From Planctomonas psychrotolerans (GTDB lineage: Bacteria > Actinomycetota > Actinomycetes > Actinomycetales > Microbacteriaceae): a stretch of DNA of 64,000 bases. The DNA is taken from the NCBI RefSeq assembly GCF_008642235.1, contig NZ_SJEV01000001.1, positions 1 through 64,000 on the forward strand, read 5' to 3'. Of the stretch, positions 32,945-39,289 are shown in pieces. The notes beneath the pieces were generated by a model, which had not been told where the DNA came from, did not search any database, and saw only the letters and a list, made by a program, of their open reading frames with translations. A program made the translations under genes and the position numbers. The first letter of the stretch is position 1. Each line of letters opens with the position of its first letter.

Positions 32945-35026
32945 TCAGACGTCGATGCGCTCGCGCGACAGATCCGACGATCCCTGGATGATGAACTCCT
33001 TGCGGGGAGCGACGTCGTTGCCCATGAGCAGCTCGAACATCGTCTCCGCGGCGTAGGCATCGGCGACGTTCACCCGGCGGAGGCTGCGGTTCCGCCGGTC
33101 CATCGTGGTGTTGGCCAACTGGTCGGCGTCCATCTCGCCGAGCCCCTTGTACCGCTGGATCGGATCCTGATAGCGCTTGTTGCTGCGCCGGAGGCTCGCG
33201 AGCAACGCGGTCAACTCCGTCTCCGAGTAGGTGTAGATGGTCTCGTTCGGCTTCGAGCCGGGGTGCATCACGACCACGCGGTGCAGCGGCGGCACGGCGG
33301 CGAAGACGCGACCGTCCTCGATCATCGGGCGCATGTAGCGGAAGAACAGCGTGAGCAGGAGGGTACGGATGTGCGCGCCGTCGACGTCGGCGTCGCTCAT
33401 CACGATGACCTTGCCGTAGCGGGCCGCCGACAGGTCGAACGACCGACCGGAGCCGGCTCCGATCACCTGGATGATCGATGCGCACTCTGCGTTCGACAGC
33501 ATGTCCGAGATGGTGGCCTTCTGCACGTTGAGGATCTTGCCGCGGAGCGGCAGCAGCGCCTGGTACTCGCTGTCGCGCGCGAGCTTCGCGGTGCCGAGCG
33601 CCGAGTCGCCCTCCACGAGGAACAACTCGCTATTCGCCACGTCGTTCGAGCGGCAGTCCACGAGCTTCGCGGGCAGCGTCGAGCTCTCCAGCGCGTTCTT
33701 GCGACGCTGCGTCTCCTTGTGCGCCCGGGCGGAGATCCGCGACTTCATCTCGGCGACGATCTTGTCGAGCACCAGCGCCGACTGCGTCTTGTCGTCGCGC
33801 TTGGGCGACGAGAAGCGTTCCGCGAGCTGCTTCGTGACCACGCTGGAGACGATGTTGCGCACCGCCGGCGTGCCGAGGATCTCCTTGGTCTGCCCCTCGA
33901 ACTGCGGTTCGGGAAGACGGACGGTGAGCACCGCCGTGAGACCCGCGAGGATGTCGTCCTTCTCCAGTTTGTCGTTGCCGACCTTGAGGCGGCGGGCGTT
34001 CAGTTCGAGCTGCTGACGGAGGAAGCGGAGCAGTCCCGCCTCGAAGCCCGCCTGGTGCGTGCCGCCCTTCGGGGTGGCGATGATGTTGACGAAGCTCTTG
34101 AACTCGGTCTCGTAGCCGATCCCCCAGCGGAGTGCGATGTCCACCTCGCACTCGCGGGTGAGCTCGGTGGGCACCATCGCCCCGCCCGGCGACAGCACGG
34201 GAACCGTCTCGGTGAAGCTTCCGCTGCCCTGCAGCCGCCAGGTCTCCGTGATCGGCGCGTCGGCCGCGAGGTGATCCACGAACTCGGCGATGCCGCCGTC
34301 GTAGCGGAACGACTCGACCCGGTGCTCGTCCCCCCGCTCGTCCTGGATCTCGATGTGCAGCCCGGGGATGAGGAATGCCGTCTGGCGCGCGCGATCCACG
34401 AGCTCGTCGGTCTGGAACTCGGCTCCGCGGGTGAAGATCTGGCGGTCGGCCCAGTACCGCACGCGAGTGCCCGTGACGCCCTTCGCCACCTTGCCCACCA
34501 CACGCAACTCGCTGCCCGACACGAACGGGGTGAACGGCGCGTCCGGCGTCGGGTCCCCGGCGTCGGCGAACGTTCCGGGCTCGCCGCGGTGGAACGACAT
34601 CGCCCACGTCTTGCCGTTGCGGTCGACCTCCACGTCGAGTCGCTCCGAGAGGGCGTTGACCACGCTCGCGCCGACCCCGTGCAGACCACCGGACGCGGCG
34701 TAGGAGCCGCTGCCGAACTTGCCACCGGCGTGCAGCTTGGTGAAGACGACCTCCACGCCGCTCAGTCCCGTCTTCGGCTCCACGTCGACCGGGATGCCGC
34801 GGGCGCGGTCGCGCACCTCCACACTGCCGTCCGCGTGCAGCAGCACCCGGATCTCGGCGCCATGCCCCCCGAGGGCCTCGTCGACGGAGTTGTCGATGAT
34901 CTCCCACAGGCAGTGCATGAGCCCCCGCGAGTCGGTGGAACCGACGTACATGCCGGGGCGCTTGCGCACCGCCTCGAGACCCTCGAGCACGGAGAGGTGA
35001 CGGGCCAGATAGTCGGAACCTGCCAC
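32945..35026 (-). CDS. parE: DNA topoisomerase IV / gyrase subunit B
   Basis: A 693-residue ATPase subunit of a type II topoisomerase. The GHKL ATPase part is at the N-terminus (EIIDNSVDEALGG, GLHGVGASVVNALS). The Toprim domain carries EGDSALGTAK and DADVDGAHIRTL, and ends with the short YKGLGEMDADQL tail. I chose GTG 35026 because GGAGGG (35034-35039) precedes it and the family starts there; the longer frame runs into the neighbouring promoter. It faces parC tail to tail, separated by about 50 bases. Confidence 0.95.
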   Translation of the reverse strand: MAGSDYLARHLSVLEGLEAVRKRPGMYVGSTDSRGLMHCLWEIIDNSVDEALGGHGAEIRVLLHADGSVEVRDRARGIPVDVEPKTGLSGVEVVFTKLHAGGKFGSGSYAASGGLHGVGASVVNALSERLDVEVDRNGKTWAMSFHRGEPGTFADAGDPTPDAPFTPFVSGSELRVVGKVAKGVTGTRVRYWADRQIFTRGAEFQTDELVDRARQTAFLIPGLHIEIQDERGDEHRVESFRYDGGIAEFVDHLAADAPITETWRLQGSGSFTETVPVLSPGGAMVPTELTRECEVDIALRWGIGYETEFKSFVNIIATPKGGTHQAGFEAGLLRFLRQQLELNARRLKVGNDKLEKDDILAGLTAVLTVRLPEPQFEGQTKEILGTPAVRNIVSSVVTKQLAERFSSPKRDDKTQSALVLDKIVAEMKSRISARAHKETQRRKNALESSTLPAKLVDCRSNDVANSELFLVEGDSALGTAKLARDSEYQALLPLRGKILNVQKATISDMLSNAECASIIQVIGAGSGRSFDLSAARYGKVIVMSDADVDGAHIRTLLLTLFFRYMRPMIEDGRVFAAVPPLHRVVVMHPGSKPNETIYTYSETELTALLASLRRSNKRYQDPIQRYKGLGEMDADQLANTTMDRRNRSLRRVNVADAYAAETMFELLMGNDVAPRKEFIIQGSSDLSRERIDV

Positions 35027-35240
35027 GTGACTTCCCTCCGTACGATGCTTCGCTCCCGCTTCGTTTCGGGAGCCCGGACCAGCGTAATCGTCGCCTCCGG
35101 GCTTCCCGCGCAGGACACCCCCGCCCGCGAATGCACTACGCGCAAAGCGAAATGCGCCCCCGCGGTGTCGTCGCGCGCGCGCAAGCATGCTTGTATGGAT
35201 CATCCGAGTCGTACGAACCCGAACCGGAGGGGAGCATTCC

Positions 35241-35474
35241 ATGCCACAGACAGCCACCGAGGCCACCACCGTCGACGAGATGCACTCGCACCAGCTGACG
35301 GCGGCCGACCGCTGCGACAGCTGCGGTGCCCAGGCGTACATCCGCGTTGTGGTGTCGAGCGGCGAGCTCCTCTTCTGCGCCCACCACGGCAAGAAGCACC
35401 AGGAGAAGCTCTCGTCGATCGCCACCAGCTGGCACGACGAGTCCGCCCGACTCTTCGACGAGCAGCGCGCGTAA
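35241..35474 (+). CDS. Small DUF7455-type zinc-binding protein
   Basis: A 77-residue protein containing RCDSCGAQAYIRV and FCAHHGKKH, giving a C-x-x-C plus C-x-H-H set that could bind one zinc. It belongs to a small actinobacterial family of unknown function often encoded next to the ParE-like gene. I chose ATG 35241 because the ribosome site GGAGGGGAG lies just upstream. It ends in a textbook terminator. It is divergent from parE, so the region 35027-35240 holds both promoters. Confidence 0.88.
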   Translation: MPQTATEATTVDEMHSHQLTAADRCDSCGAQAYIRVVVSSGELLFCAHHGKKHQEKLSSIATSWHDESARLFDEQRA

Positions 35475-35563: not shown

Positions 35564-36277
35564 TCAGGCGTCGATGGTGGCGCGGGCGCGGCTCGCCCAC
35601 TCGTCGAGCTGGGTGAGGCTCTGCTCGTCCGCCAGCGTCGCAGTGCCGGTGCGGGCGATCGCCGCCGCCAGCAGTTCGTCGGCGAGCGACGGATTCAGCG
35701 CGAGCACGGGACCGTTCAGGTGGGTGCCGACGAGCGAGCCGATGCGCACGCCCTCTCCGCCACCCGCTCCGGTGTTGCCGAAACCGCGGCGCACGCGGCC
35801 GAGCACGGCATCGTCGGTCACCTCGAGAGTCGATCCGTGATTCTCGAAGCCGACGAGCACCCCGGTCGGGGTGTCGACGACGATGTCCCCGACGGAGCGC
35901 TGGGCGACGAGCCTCGTGCGGACGGGGAGCACCCCTGCGCCGTCGAGCACCGATCCGTCGAGCAGCGTAATCCGCTCGCCGAGCAGCTGCATGCCGCCGG
36001 CGACCGCGAGGAACGGCGCCCCACTTTCGGCGAGTTCTCGGAGGCGCCCGGCGTGCGCGAGCAGGTCGGCGTGCACGGCTCGCTGCGCCGACAGCGGACC
36101 CGAACCGACGAAGACGAGGTCGGCGTCCGGCAGCGGACCCTGTGCCACGTCGTGCTGGAGCACAGTCACCGCGATCCCCCGGCGCTCGGCGCGCTGGCGG
36201 AGGACGAGCACGTTGCCGCGGTCCCCGTTGATGCCGAGTTCCCGCGGATACAGGTGCAGGATGCGGAGCTCGGTCAC
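35564..36277 (-). CDS. gatD: GatD-like amidotransferase lacking its catalytic Cys and His
   Basis: A 237-residue class I glutamine-amidotransferase-fold protein of the CobB/CobQ-like GatD family. GatD normally frees ammonia from glutamine for MurT to amidate the D-Glu of lipid II. Here the nucleophile elbow reads AVAGGMQLLG, with Ala93 in place of the catalytic Cys. The later motif reads GTHLNGPVL, with Asn188 where the family has the catalytic His. Both sit one residue before Cys94 and His189 of S. aureus GatD, so the alignment is consistent. It cannot hydrolyse glutamine by the usual mechanism. The GTG start overlaps the murT stop, so the two proteins are made together. Confidence 0.9.
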   Translation of the reverse strand: MTELRILHLYPRELGINGDRGNVLVLRQRAERRGIAVTVLQHDVAQGPLPDADLVFVGSGPLSAQRAVHADLLAHAGRLRELAESGAPFLAVAGGMQLLGERITLLDGSVLDGAGVLPVRTRLVAQRSVGDIVVDTPTGVLVGFENHGSTLEVTDDAVLGRVRRGFGNTGAGGGEGVRIGSLVGTHLNGPVLALNPSLADELLAAAIARTGTATLADEQSLTQLDEWASRARATIDA

Positions 36278-37551
36278 GACTGTCCGCCCTCGAGGTCGGT
36301 GTAGCCGAGCATGCGACGGATCAGCATCATCTGCTCGTAGTTCACGATCATGGTCTTGCGTCCCGCCGTGGGGCGCGGGAGCGCGAGGAACCGCTTGACG
36401 GCCGTGCGGAGGTCGGGTTCGACCTCTCCGACGCGGATCCCCTCGTAGCCGAGGCGCACGGCCAGCTGGTAGCCCTTGCTGCCGGAGAGCACGTCGGCGT
36501 GGTCCAACTTCGACAGGTCGATGTCGTACAACCACGACGGGTCGGGCGTGCCGTCGTCCACCGCGAGGAAGACCTGCTCGGGAACGGCATCGAGGGAGTC
36601 GAGGTTCATCTGCAGGCTCGCGGGGTTCTTCATCATGATGATCTCGATCTCCTCGCCAGCGGAGACCAGGGTCTCGCCGCGCCCGTAGACCGTGCCGAGC
36701 TCGTCGAGGGCCCGCACCGCGGCATCGGCCGAGAACCGATCGCCCAGCGCAGCCCGCGAGGCGGCGATCGCCCCGGCGGCATCCACCGCGTAGTGAACGC
36801 CGCGGGCGGGCAGCCGGATGCGTGTGGGCACGCCGGCGATGTCGAGGGTGGCGTCCCGTCCCTGGAGTGCGGTGGCGACGACGTCGGCCGAGGCCGGGGC
36901 GACTGTGGCGGCGCCGCCGAACCGAGGCGCCGACAGCATGCCCTGCGAGACGCTGCCGAGCAGTTCGGGCACCGTGCCGAAGTAGGACACCCGGGCGGAC
37001 GACCCCGCGGGCAGCTCATCGGCGAGTCCGACGAGGTGTTCGTCGTCGCGGTTGAGCACGAGCTCCGACGTGGCGGTGGCGGCGATCTTCGCGAGCATGC
37101 CGGCCACGCGGTCGGGCTCGAAGAACCGGTTGAGCTGGTCGATCTGCACGTTCAGCAGGAGCACGACGGTGGGCGTCAACAGACGCGTCAGCTCGACGCC
37201 GTAGGCCTCGTCGACCTCGAGCACCGCGATGTCGGCCTTCAGTCGACCCGCGGCGTCGGCGTCGGCGAGCACGGCCGACGCGATCCCCTGCGGCAGGTTA
37301 CCCCCGGAGGGGTTCGTGAAGACCCGGAGGTCGTGCGCACGCAGGATGGCCGCGACCATGTGGGTGGTCGTGGACTTGCCGTTCGACCCCGAGACGGCGA
37401 TGACACCGAGGGGCAGGTCGGCGATAGTGCGCTCGAGGAACCTCGGAGCGATCCGCAGGGCGACGTAGCCCGGGATGGCCGAGCCGCCGCCGCGCCGTCG
37501 CGCGACAGCTCTCACCAGTCGTCCGGCGGCGACCGCCAGGCGAAGACGCAC
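36274..37551 (-). CDS. murT: MurT-like Mur ligase without the zinc ribbon
   Basis: A 425-residue Mur-ligase-fold protein with the ATP-binding loop GSNGKST (55-61), a central ligase domain and a C-terminal DUF1727 domain (DDGTPDPSWLYDIDL). MurT normally uses ATP and GatD-derived ammonia to amidate D-Glu of lipid II. Characterised MurT proteins carry a Cys4 zinc ribbon in the central domain; this protein contains no cysteine at all. The start is GTG 37551, two bases after the sigA stop, so sigA, murT and gatD form one run. The acceptor of this variant may differ. Confidence 0.9.
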   Translation of the reverse strand: MRLRLAVAAGRLVRAVARRRGGGSAIPGYVALRIAPRFLERTIADLPLGVIAVSGSNGKSTTTHMVAAILRAHDLRVFTNPSGGNLPQGIASAVLADADAAGRLKADIAVLEVDEAYGVELTRLLTPTVVLLLNVQIDQLNRFFEPDRVAGMLAKIAATATSELVLNRDDEHLVGLADELPAGSSARVSYFGTVPELLGSVSQGMLSAPRFGGAATVAPASADVVATALQGRDATLDIAGVPTRIRLPARGVHYAVDAAGAIAASRAALGDRFSADAAVRALDELGTVYGRGETLVSAGEEIEIIMMKNPASLQMNLDSLDAVPEQVFLAVDDGTPDPSWLYDIDLSKLDHADVLSGSKGYQLAVRLGYEGIRVGEVEPDLRTAVKRFLALPRPTAGRKTMIVNYEQMMLIRRMLGYTDLEGGQS

Positions 37552-37553
37552 GG

Positions 37554-38918
<1,365 letters not shown>

Positions 38919-39289
38919 TCGTATACCTTTCGAACCTTGTGCCGGGCTGGTGGAAATCGCGCGGGGAAGCGCGTCTGGCATCGGGTCGAGGTTGAATTTG
39001 GACATTACTAAGACCCATGTCAAGTTCGGTGCGTGTTCACTCCGGAGGAGATGAACCGTGCACGAGCAAGAACGGGTCTCTGGCGTCAATTATTGCACGG
39101 AAAGCCGTTCACCCGAGCCAGTCACCCCTTGCGTCCGGCGCGCGCTTCGGCTAATGCAACCCGGAGTCGCCCCATCCGTATTCCCTCATCGTCGGGATGA
39201 CGCCGCCGGGTCGGCGTGCGGCTGCGCACACGCAGCACGGGGTGCCCGCCCGGCTCGGGAGCACCGGCGGCGGCGGTTAGGCTCGAAGA
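38919..39289. other. Intergenic region with the divergent sigA and SDR promoters
   Basis: This 371-base stretch has no convincing gene. On the minus strand it contains a perfect -35-like TTGACA (39023-39018) upstream of sigA, but I cannot place a good -10 box. On the plus strand a -10 box TAGGCT (39278-39283) lies 6 bases before the SDR start. A small hairpin (GCTGCG-CACA-CGCAGC, 39221-39236) precedes that promoter. Confidence 0.5.

Follow-up and report, generated by a model that had tools for sequence, protein, structure and literature searches.

At the start of contig NZ_SJEV01000001.1 of Planctomonas psychrotolerans (Microbacteriaceae, a large family with members in soil and on plants), two adjacent genes encode relatives of MurT and GatD, the proteins of the lipid II isoglutaminyl synthase. 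The stretch analyzed, called the window below, comprises positions 1 to 64,000 of this contig. The murT gene (36274..37551, minus strand) codes for a 425-aa synthetase of the Mur ligase fold and overlaps by 4 bp (GTGA) the gatD gene (35564..36277, minus strand), which codes for a 237-aa protein of the class I glutaminase fold. Only 2 nt separate murT from the end of sigA (rpoD; 37554..39089, minus strand), and the pair lies upstream of parE (topoisomerase IV subunit B, minus strand; 32945..35425 as an open reading frame, with the true start inside it). The two adjacent genes passed the Pfam cut-offs for MurT_C (DUF1727; 35.6 bits against a cut-off of 25), the Mur ligase middle domain, and GATase_3. 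The AlphaFold models had pLDDT values of 90.7 (MurT) and 95.4 (GatD), and the best PDB match of the MurT model was Streptococcus pyogenes MurT (Z 29.6, rmsd 4.2, 353 aligned residues; VIA-align to 9sqj, Z 29.6), tied with MurC (Z 29.5). The closest known system is the MurT/GatD lipid II isoglutaminyl synthase (Staphylococcus aureus 6gs2/6h5e, Streptococcus pneumoniae 6fqb, S. pyogenes 9sq9); however, both window proteins score far under the NCBIfam equivalog cut-offs (134.9 against 450 and 100.7 against 400 for GatD; 94.4 and 86.2 against 800 for MurT). The pair belongs to the MurT/GatD fold family, which is a statement of homology and not of function.

Both catalytic glutaminase residues are missing from the window GatD. 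In a phmmer alignment with S. aureus GatD (6gs2_A, 1.7e-36), Ala93 (codon 35999..36001, minus strand) stands at the position of the nucleophile Cys94 and Asn188 (35714..35716, minus strand) at that of His189, as a preliminary description of this DNA had stated. That description had also considered a shift of either residue to a nearby position. Since neither window protein contains a single cysteine, Cys94 was not displaced, and the histidine found two residues before Asn188, in the motif GTHLNGP, is not a displaced His189, because it corresponds to the Tyr in GTYLHGP, the ordinary form of this motif, and many relatives have it together with an intact His189. The window MurT, correctly described earlier as cysteine-free with an intact ATP loop and DUF1727 domain, retains the P-loop GSNGKST (GSNGKS, residues 55-60; 37372..37389, minus strand), the E-x-D-E motif, the N, DQ, and R residues, and Asp337 (in DPSW; 36541..36543, minus strand), which corresponds to Asp349 of S. 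aureus MurT, the third residue of the triad. A second MurT/GatD pair, another possibility raised at the outset, was not found: the window protein is the only MurT_C protein of this genome. In total, the genome encodes six Mur-ligase-domain proteins, namely this MurT, four that are grouped at 98-107 kb with the position and spacing expected for MurC-F, and one at 2.80 Mb that is, by inference, FolC-like.

We then placed the pair among its relatives, using a sample of 199 Microbacteriaceae genomes searched for GatD and MurT_C, which were detected in 159 and 141 genomes, respectively. The assignment of the sample to this family is based on five contigs that are identical to records named as Microbacteriaceae. 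Ninety distinct loci of the family were read (the 30 best matches plus 60 chosen by hand for genera and second copies, not all matches), together with 20 loci from other families of the order and loci from named records. Among these, L001 is a repeat of the window, L007 was left out of the tree as identical over the compared stretch, and a Naasia locus (L164), with a MurT of the window type and no GatD match over the threshold, is not in the tree either. The tree held five species twice, and the counts of pairs below rest on 129 distinct pairs.

The window pair fell inside one clade with a long stem (support 0.888), here called the star clade, which holds 91 of the 129 pairs (72 from the family sample and 19 from named records). 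None of the 91 has a Cys at position 94, which is occupied by Gly (61), Ala (20), Ser (6), Asn (2), or Thr (2); His189 is kept in 59, replaced in 31, and falls in a gap in one. Outside this clade, Cys and His are both present in all 31 ordinary pairs (13 from the family and 18 from eight other families). Both kinds of pair coexist in four genomes, G050 and G113 (genus label g51), G060 (g61), and G149 (g29). A pair without the Cys (L037), branching close to the clade's base, comes from a 0.93 Mb genome (G013, 927,303 bp).

Two smaller sets of pairs have also lost the glutaminase residues, by the tree independently of the star clade as far as the Cys is concerned. Five pairs from a few genera, called class III (L044, L075, L089, L090, and L172), have His or Gln at position 94 and Ile or Leu at 189; they also occupy the slot behind sigA, and their MurT mostly has the four-cysteine (Cys4) motifs. 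In two Brevibacterium-like genomes (L110/G493 and L111/G502), Cys is replaced by Arg and His by Gln, the Cys4 motifs of MurT are retained, and the E-x-D-E motif reads E-T-R-E. The label Brevibacterium-like for their family, f7, rests on a narrow margin of sigA nucleotide identity to Brevibacterium (84-87% in five genomes, compared with 80-83% in 13 genomes of other families). The three other f7 genomes gave weak matches only to the MurT profile.

Other residues changed along with the Cys. Relative to the known synthase, the star clade also lacks a putative ammonia-gate Arg and the adenine-site Asn residues, and its MurT has a new conserved acidic residue near the C-terminus. The gate residue, equated by alignment with S. 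aureus R133 and S. pneumoniae R135, is Arg in 31/31 ordinary MurT proteins and Val, Ile, Thr, or Leu in 91/91 star MurT proteins (Ile137 in the window; 37141..37143, minus strand); pneumococcal R135 is described as closing the ammonia gate. A Thr present in 31/31 ordinary proteins is replaced by Glu or Asp in 89/91 star proteins (Glu406 in the window; 36334..36336, minus strand), and an Arg at another position, likewise found in 31/31, is replaced by Lys in 85/91. The adenine-binding Asn..Asn has mostly become Tyr..Asp (Tyr in 81/91, Asp in 89/91; Tyr254..Asp257 in the window, 36781..36792, minus strand).

These losses might suggest a pseudo-amidotransferase, either dead or with a regulatory function, as a relic of a change of the cell wall to group B peptidoglycan; the absence of the Cys, the replacement of His189 in 31/91 pairs (with the one further gap), and the altered adenine site would all fit. 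However, K59, E112, D114, E115, N134, D138, and R142 of MurT, which cover the P-loop Lys, the Mg-binding Glu, and the residues of the carboxylate site, are invariant in 91/91 star pairs, as is the Asp349 equivalent, although the glutaminase Cys is gone. In five close groups, dN/dS was 0.06-0.20 for murT and 0.11-0.31 for gatD, low values which indicate that both genes are under purifying selection and kept rather than decaying. The pair is retained even in the 0.93 Mb genome, and 28 genomes without it have another ligase, described below, and not an empty slot. We consider a relic to be very improbable.

The preliminary description had also treated the absence of the MurT zinc ribbon as a distinctive feature, which it is not. 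At least two CxxC motifs were present in 0/91 star MurT proteins and in only 4/31 proteins of Cys/His-intact pairs. Because the other 27 ordinary pairs lack these motifs too, the Cys4 ribbon does not define the MurT/GatD family, and its loss was rejected as evidence of an altered function. The structure papers likewise describe the ribbon, or cysteine tetrad, as limited to part of the bacterial species.

The genomic context of the star pairs is nearly constant, with sigA as the left border and parE as the usual right border. In the family sample, sigA lay in the fetched flank of 68/72 star loci; in G067 and G062 it is just beyond this flank. The last two loci, L077 and L084, each represent an additional copy, the genome concerned having another pair that is linked to sigA. 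Such linkage was seen in none of the 13 ordinary family pairs. Where the pair is absent, sigA is often followed by a gene for a member of PF01996 (3.1e-13), the CofE or F420-0:gamma-glutamyl ligase family, which comprises amino-acid ligases and is unrelated to MurT/GatD. With 34.9 bits, far below the cut-off of 180.65 for the F420 CofE equivalog, the slot protein is not F420 CofE itself. CofE-like matches were found in 31/199 genomes; 28 were strong, and none of these 28 genomes had a GatD match (the probability that all 28 lie by chance within the 40 genomes lacking GatD is 5e-25, kinship ignored). The exceptions to this exclusion are weak matches, beside MurT in G049 and G112 and on another contig in G134. 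The CofE-like gene lies at most 1.5 kb behind sigA in 11 of the 12 CofE genomes in which sigA was located, the two being on separate contigs in G040. As nine genus labels (g7, g9, g54, g55, g68, g70, g73, g77, and g78) hold both slot states, the non-CofE state in g55 being class III, the swap between the two ligases seems to have happened repeatedly.

Named records gave the same picture. A search with 52 SigA residues returned 80 loci, of which 48 with a SigA identity of at least 90% (L162-L209) form the family set; L187, L189, and L190 bear other labels, and L210, labelled Aeromicrobium (94%), was placed with the controls. Apart from one class III locus (L172), the slot holds a star MurT in 26, a CofE-like gene in 17, neither in four, and both in none. 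The star MurT is accompanied by GatD in 25/26, the exception being the Naasia locus. These 26 loci include Rathayibacter, Leifsonia, Cryobacterium, Herbiconiux, Agreia, Curtobacterium, Okibacterium, Amnibacterium, Pseudoclavibacter, Microcella putealis, Naasia, Gulosibacter, and a metagenome-assembled genome (MAG) of Agromyces. The CofE loci are all 12 named Microbacterium, Salinibacterium, Pseudolysinimonas, Microcella alkaliphila, a family MAG, and a record labelled Stenotrophomonas, while the four ligase-free slots belong to three Leucobacter and one MAG.

Further genes adjoin the ligases in this slot, counted behind sigA and, when the stretch included parE, only up to that gene. Alanine-racemase-family genes occur in 10/26 star MurT loci and 12/17 CofE loci, nearly always as a longer and a shorter one, and an ATP-grasp protein (PF14397) in 15/17 CofE loci and 0/26 star MurT loci. 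A gene for diaminobutyrate transaminase adjoins gatD in L190, and one lies between sigA and the CofE-like gene in G018 (NCBIfam EctB, 4e-181). At an E-value of 1e-15, racemase-family, ATP-grasp, and transaminase genes were found in 0/32 control loci, a search in which the family queries could miss distant versions. The interval between sigA and parE looks like a peptidoglycan-bridge island. The racemase-family genes stand beside the ligase as a long gene and a half-length partner, for example in L171 (11184-12968, minus strand), L163 (11217-13283, plus strand), and many CofE loci. In L171, a presumed PLP-lysine motif is found in the long partner and a presumed tyrosine motif (GYADG) in the short one, which suggests that the two may form a racemase heterodimer acting on a diamino acid.

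In group B peptidoglycan, the interpeptide bridge is bonded to the alpha-carboxyl group of D-Glu, which requires a carboxylate ligase using ATP or GTP; the aminoacyl-tRNA-dependent Fem enzymes act on amines. We regard it as probable that the star pair is a former lipid II amidotransferase turned amino-acid ligase, which would attach the first residue of the group B bridge to this carboxyl group with GatD as a scaffold. An amino acid, through its amino group, would take the role of ammonia as the incoming nucleophile at MurT, and GatD, unable to hydrolyze glutamine, would be retained as a structural partner. In Planctomonas and its relatives of the 2,4-diaminobutyrate (DAB) type, the residue would most likely be D-2,4-diaminobutyrate, and in relatives of the Curtobacterium type D-Orn. 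Microbacterium and some other lineages would use the CofE-like ligase for the equivalent step, presumably with Gly, followed by the ATP-grasp ligase. Carboxyl activation followed by the attack of an amino acid is the reaction of the peptide ligases MurC-F, which also share the fold of the star MurT (besides MurC, MurF with Z 27.5 and MurE with Z 25.9). Unlike them, however, the star MurT has no UDP-binding N-terminal domain, is paired with GatD, and presumably acts on a lipid-linked substrate.

The ligase role proposed in the preliminary description is thus supported in part. The clade-wide loss of the Cys beside an intact MurT site, the loss of the putative ammonia-gate Arg, the replacement of the pair by an amino-acid ligase at the same locus, and the racemase-family and diaminobutyrate-synthesis genes next to the ligases all speak for it, as do the low dN/dS, the inventory of six Mur proteins, and a likely diaminobutyrate transaminase of the window genome (7e-144). 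Matches to this transaminase were found in 6 of the 18 genomes tested, including G031 and the Leucobacter-like G012; at a cut-off of 1e-60, the Leifsonia-like G051 and the Rathayibacter-like G041 had no match. S. aureus MurT is also reported, as data not shown, to have replaced MurE in vitro by adding L-Lys. The retention of GatD would be explained by the reported dependence of MurT on GatD even with free ammonia.

The last report can be turned around. If GatD were a non-catalytic activator of MurT, the star pair might still amidate D-Glu using free ammonia: in the published S. aureus work, the glutamine-dependent activity is lost with GatD C94G and C94S, and MurT with the C94G protein still amidates with ammonia at pH 8.5. 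The loss of the Cys alone is therefore no proof of an amino-acid donor. On the other hand, the putative ammonia-gate Arg is lost in every star MurT, an amidated alpha-carboxyl group could not bear a group B bridge, amidation can have its own enzyme in the four genomes that also have an ordinary pair, and the CofE-like replacements belong to a family of amino-acid ligases. Continued amidation with free ammonia thus appears unlikely to us.

Known wall types bear on which residue a bridge ligase would add. The bridge of Clavibacter, Rathayibacter, Leifsonia, Herbiconiux, and Agromyces is [L-Dab] D-Glu-D-Dab, and that of Curtobacterium is D-Glu-D-Orn. The Microbacterium bridge is said to be D-Glu-Gly-(L-Lys or D-Orn), a structure ascribed to Schleifer and Kandler 1972; Gly in this bridge was not found in the literature searched. 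If these wall types are right, the star MurT goes with a diamino acid placed directly on D-Glu, and the CofE-like ligase goes with a bridge in which Gly is bonded to D-Glu and a second ligase is used. Published descriptions give type B2gamma for Subtercola and Agreia (with a Gly ratio of 1.0 in S. vilae), B2beta with the peptide D-Ala-D-Dab for Rhodoluna, B2gamma with DAB for Cryobacterium, type B with Lys or Orn for Salinibacterium, L-Lys, D-Orn, or DAB for Microbacterium, and a type B cross-link with DAB for Leucobacter.

The same synteny and ligase replacement could also fit a pair that joins an amino acid to another carboxyl group of the precursor, such as that of the position 3 diamino acid or of the bridge, or that adds the second residue of the bridge. 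The docking of lipid II to MurT is described as uncertain, and the wall diamino acids are reported to vary within the family. However, the MurT relatives described so far act on the alpha-carboxyl group of D-Glu, and the Gly ratio of 1.0 per stem in the B2gamma wall of S. vilae fits a bridge of a single residue, with Gly solely at position 1, so that no second addition is needed. This possibility, too, strikes us as improbable.

Several observations weigh against the proposed bridge-ligase role. Leucobacter, reported to have a type B wall, has no ligase in the slot in 3/3 named loci, and 12 of the 40 GatD-negative family genomes have no CofE match as well; among these 12, a MurT match was present in G005, G011, and G035, and G017, G047, and G057 had neither MurT nor CofE by profile search. 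The slot state is not bound to the genus, as Microcella putealis has the star MurT and M. alkaliphila the CofE-like gene, and the Microbacterium-like g78 is mixed, with star MurT genomes too (G096). A racemase is absent from the slot in 16/26 named star MurT loci, and the window has no space for such a gene between gatD and parE. The replacement of the adenine-site Asn pair in the window and most of the clade is also unfavorable, since N267Y, at what we take from residue spacing to be the position of Tyr254, abolishes the activity of S. aureus MurT/GatD; the star MurT may have an altered nucleotide binding or be an impaired enzyme, and GTP as its nucleotide is only a guess. In a comparison of Glu406 with the lysine-binding Glu of MurE, hhalign gave no usable alignment of the C-terminal domain.

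The broader expectation of the preliminary description, that the loss of Cys and His would track group B peptidoglycan, held only in part. The pair is not present in every group B species, given the empty Leucobacter slots, and 28 of the 199 family genomes have a strong CofE match instead. Because of Leucobacter and the ligase-free genomes, the star pair is not required for group B, and another solution than a slot ligase exists. As for group A species with the same substitutions, the two Brevibacterium-like genomes, which we presume to be group A, have lost both residues independently, and their MurT active site differs as well. On these genomes and Leucobacter, we rejected the rule that the loss of the Cys equals group B. 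The Leucobacter-like G012 has an ordinary Cys/His pair located elsewhere. Extra Mur ligases were not found in genomes without a slot ligase: G012, G021, G043, and other genomes with ordinary pairs have six Mur-domain proteins, and G017, G045, G047, and G057 have five each.

For the locus as a whole, we lean slightly toward the view that the sigA-parE interval is a biosynthesis locus for the group B bridge. In it, the star MurT/GatD would be a ligase of a D-diamino acid to the alpha-carboxyl group of lipid-linked D-Glu, possibly with a changed preference for the nucleotide. Its non-homologous replacement would be a CofE-like glycine ligase together with the ATP-grasp protein, and the racemase-family pairs and the DAB transaminase would supply the D-diamino acid. 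No title or abstract among the matches listed from open-licence PubMed Central gave MurT/GatD a role in the group B bridge, and none of the matches listed from the open literature named a gene that joins the bridge to the alpha-carboxyl group of D-Glu in group B. With two ligase types that exclude each other, racemase-family genes, and a DAB transaminase at one locus, group B bridging becomes directly testable, and paired species can be compared; for wall type against slot state, the informative cases are the two species of Microcella, the genomes of g78, and Leucobacter. If true, the proposed role would clearly illustrate how a synthetase that uses ammonia can become an amino-acid ligase through the loss of its glutaminase. 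It should also be noted for annotation that the family genes (51 genus labels among the genomes read), likely to be named isoglutaminyl synthase, probably do not amidate.

Some other slot contents were seen. In G138 (L153), a MurE paralogue was considered as a third slot ligase and rejected: this genome has six Mur-domain proteins, those on the mur-cluster contig being MurF, MurD, and MurC by their score pattern, so that the gene in the slot most probably encodes the sole MurE of this genome, relocated from the mur cluster to behind sigA. A record labelled Stenotrophomonas maltophilia (L189) shows a typical Microbacteriaceae sigA-CofE-parE locus and is probably contaminated. In Microcella alkaliphila (L184, 9918-11508), a gene for a MurJ-like lipid II flippase lies directly behind the CofE-like gene, and the same order was found in G077 (L149).

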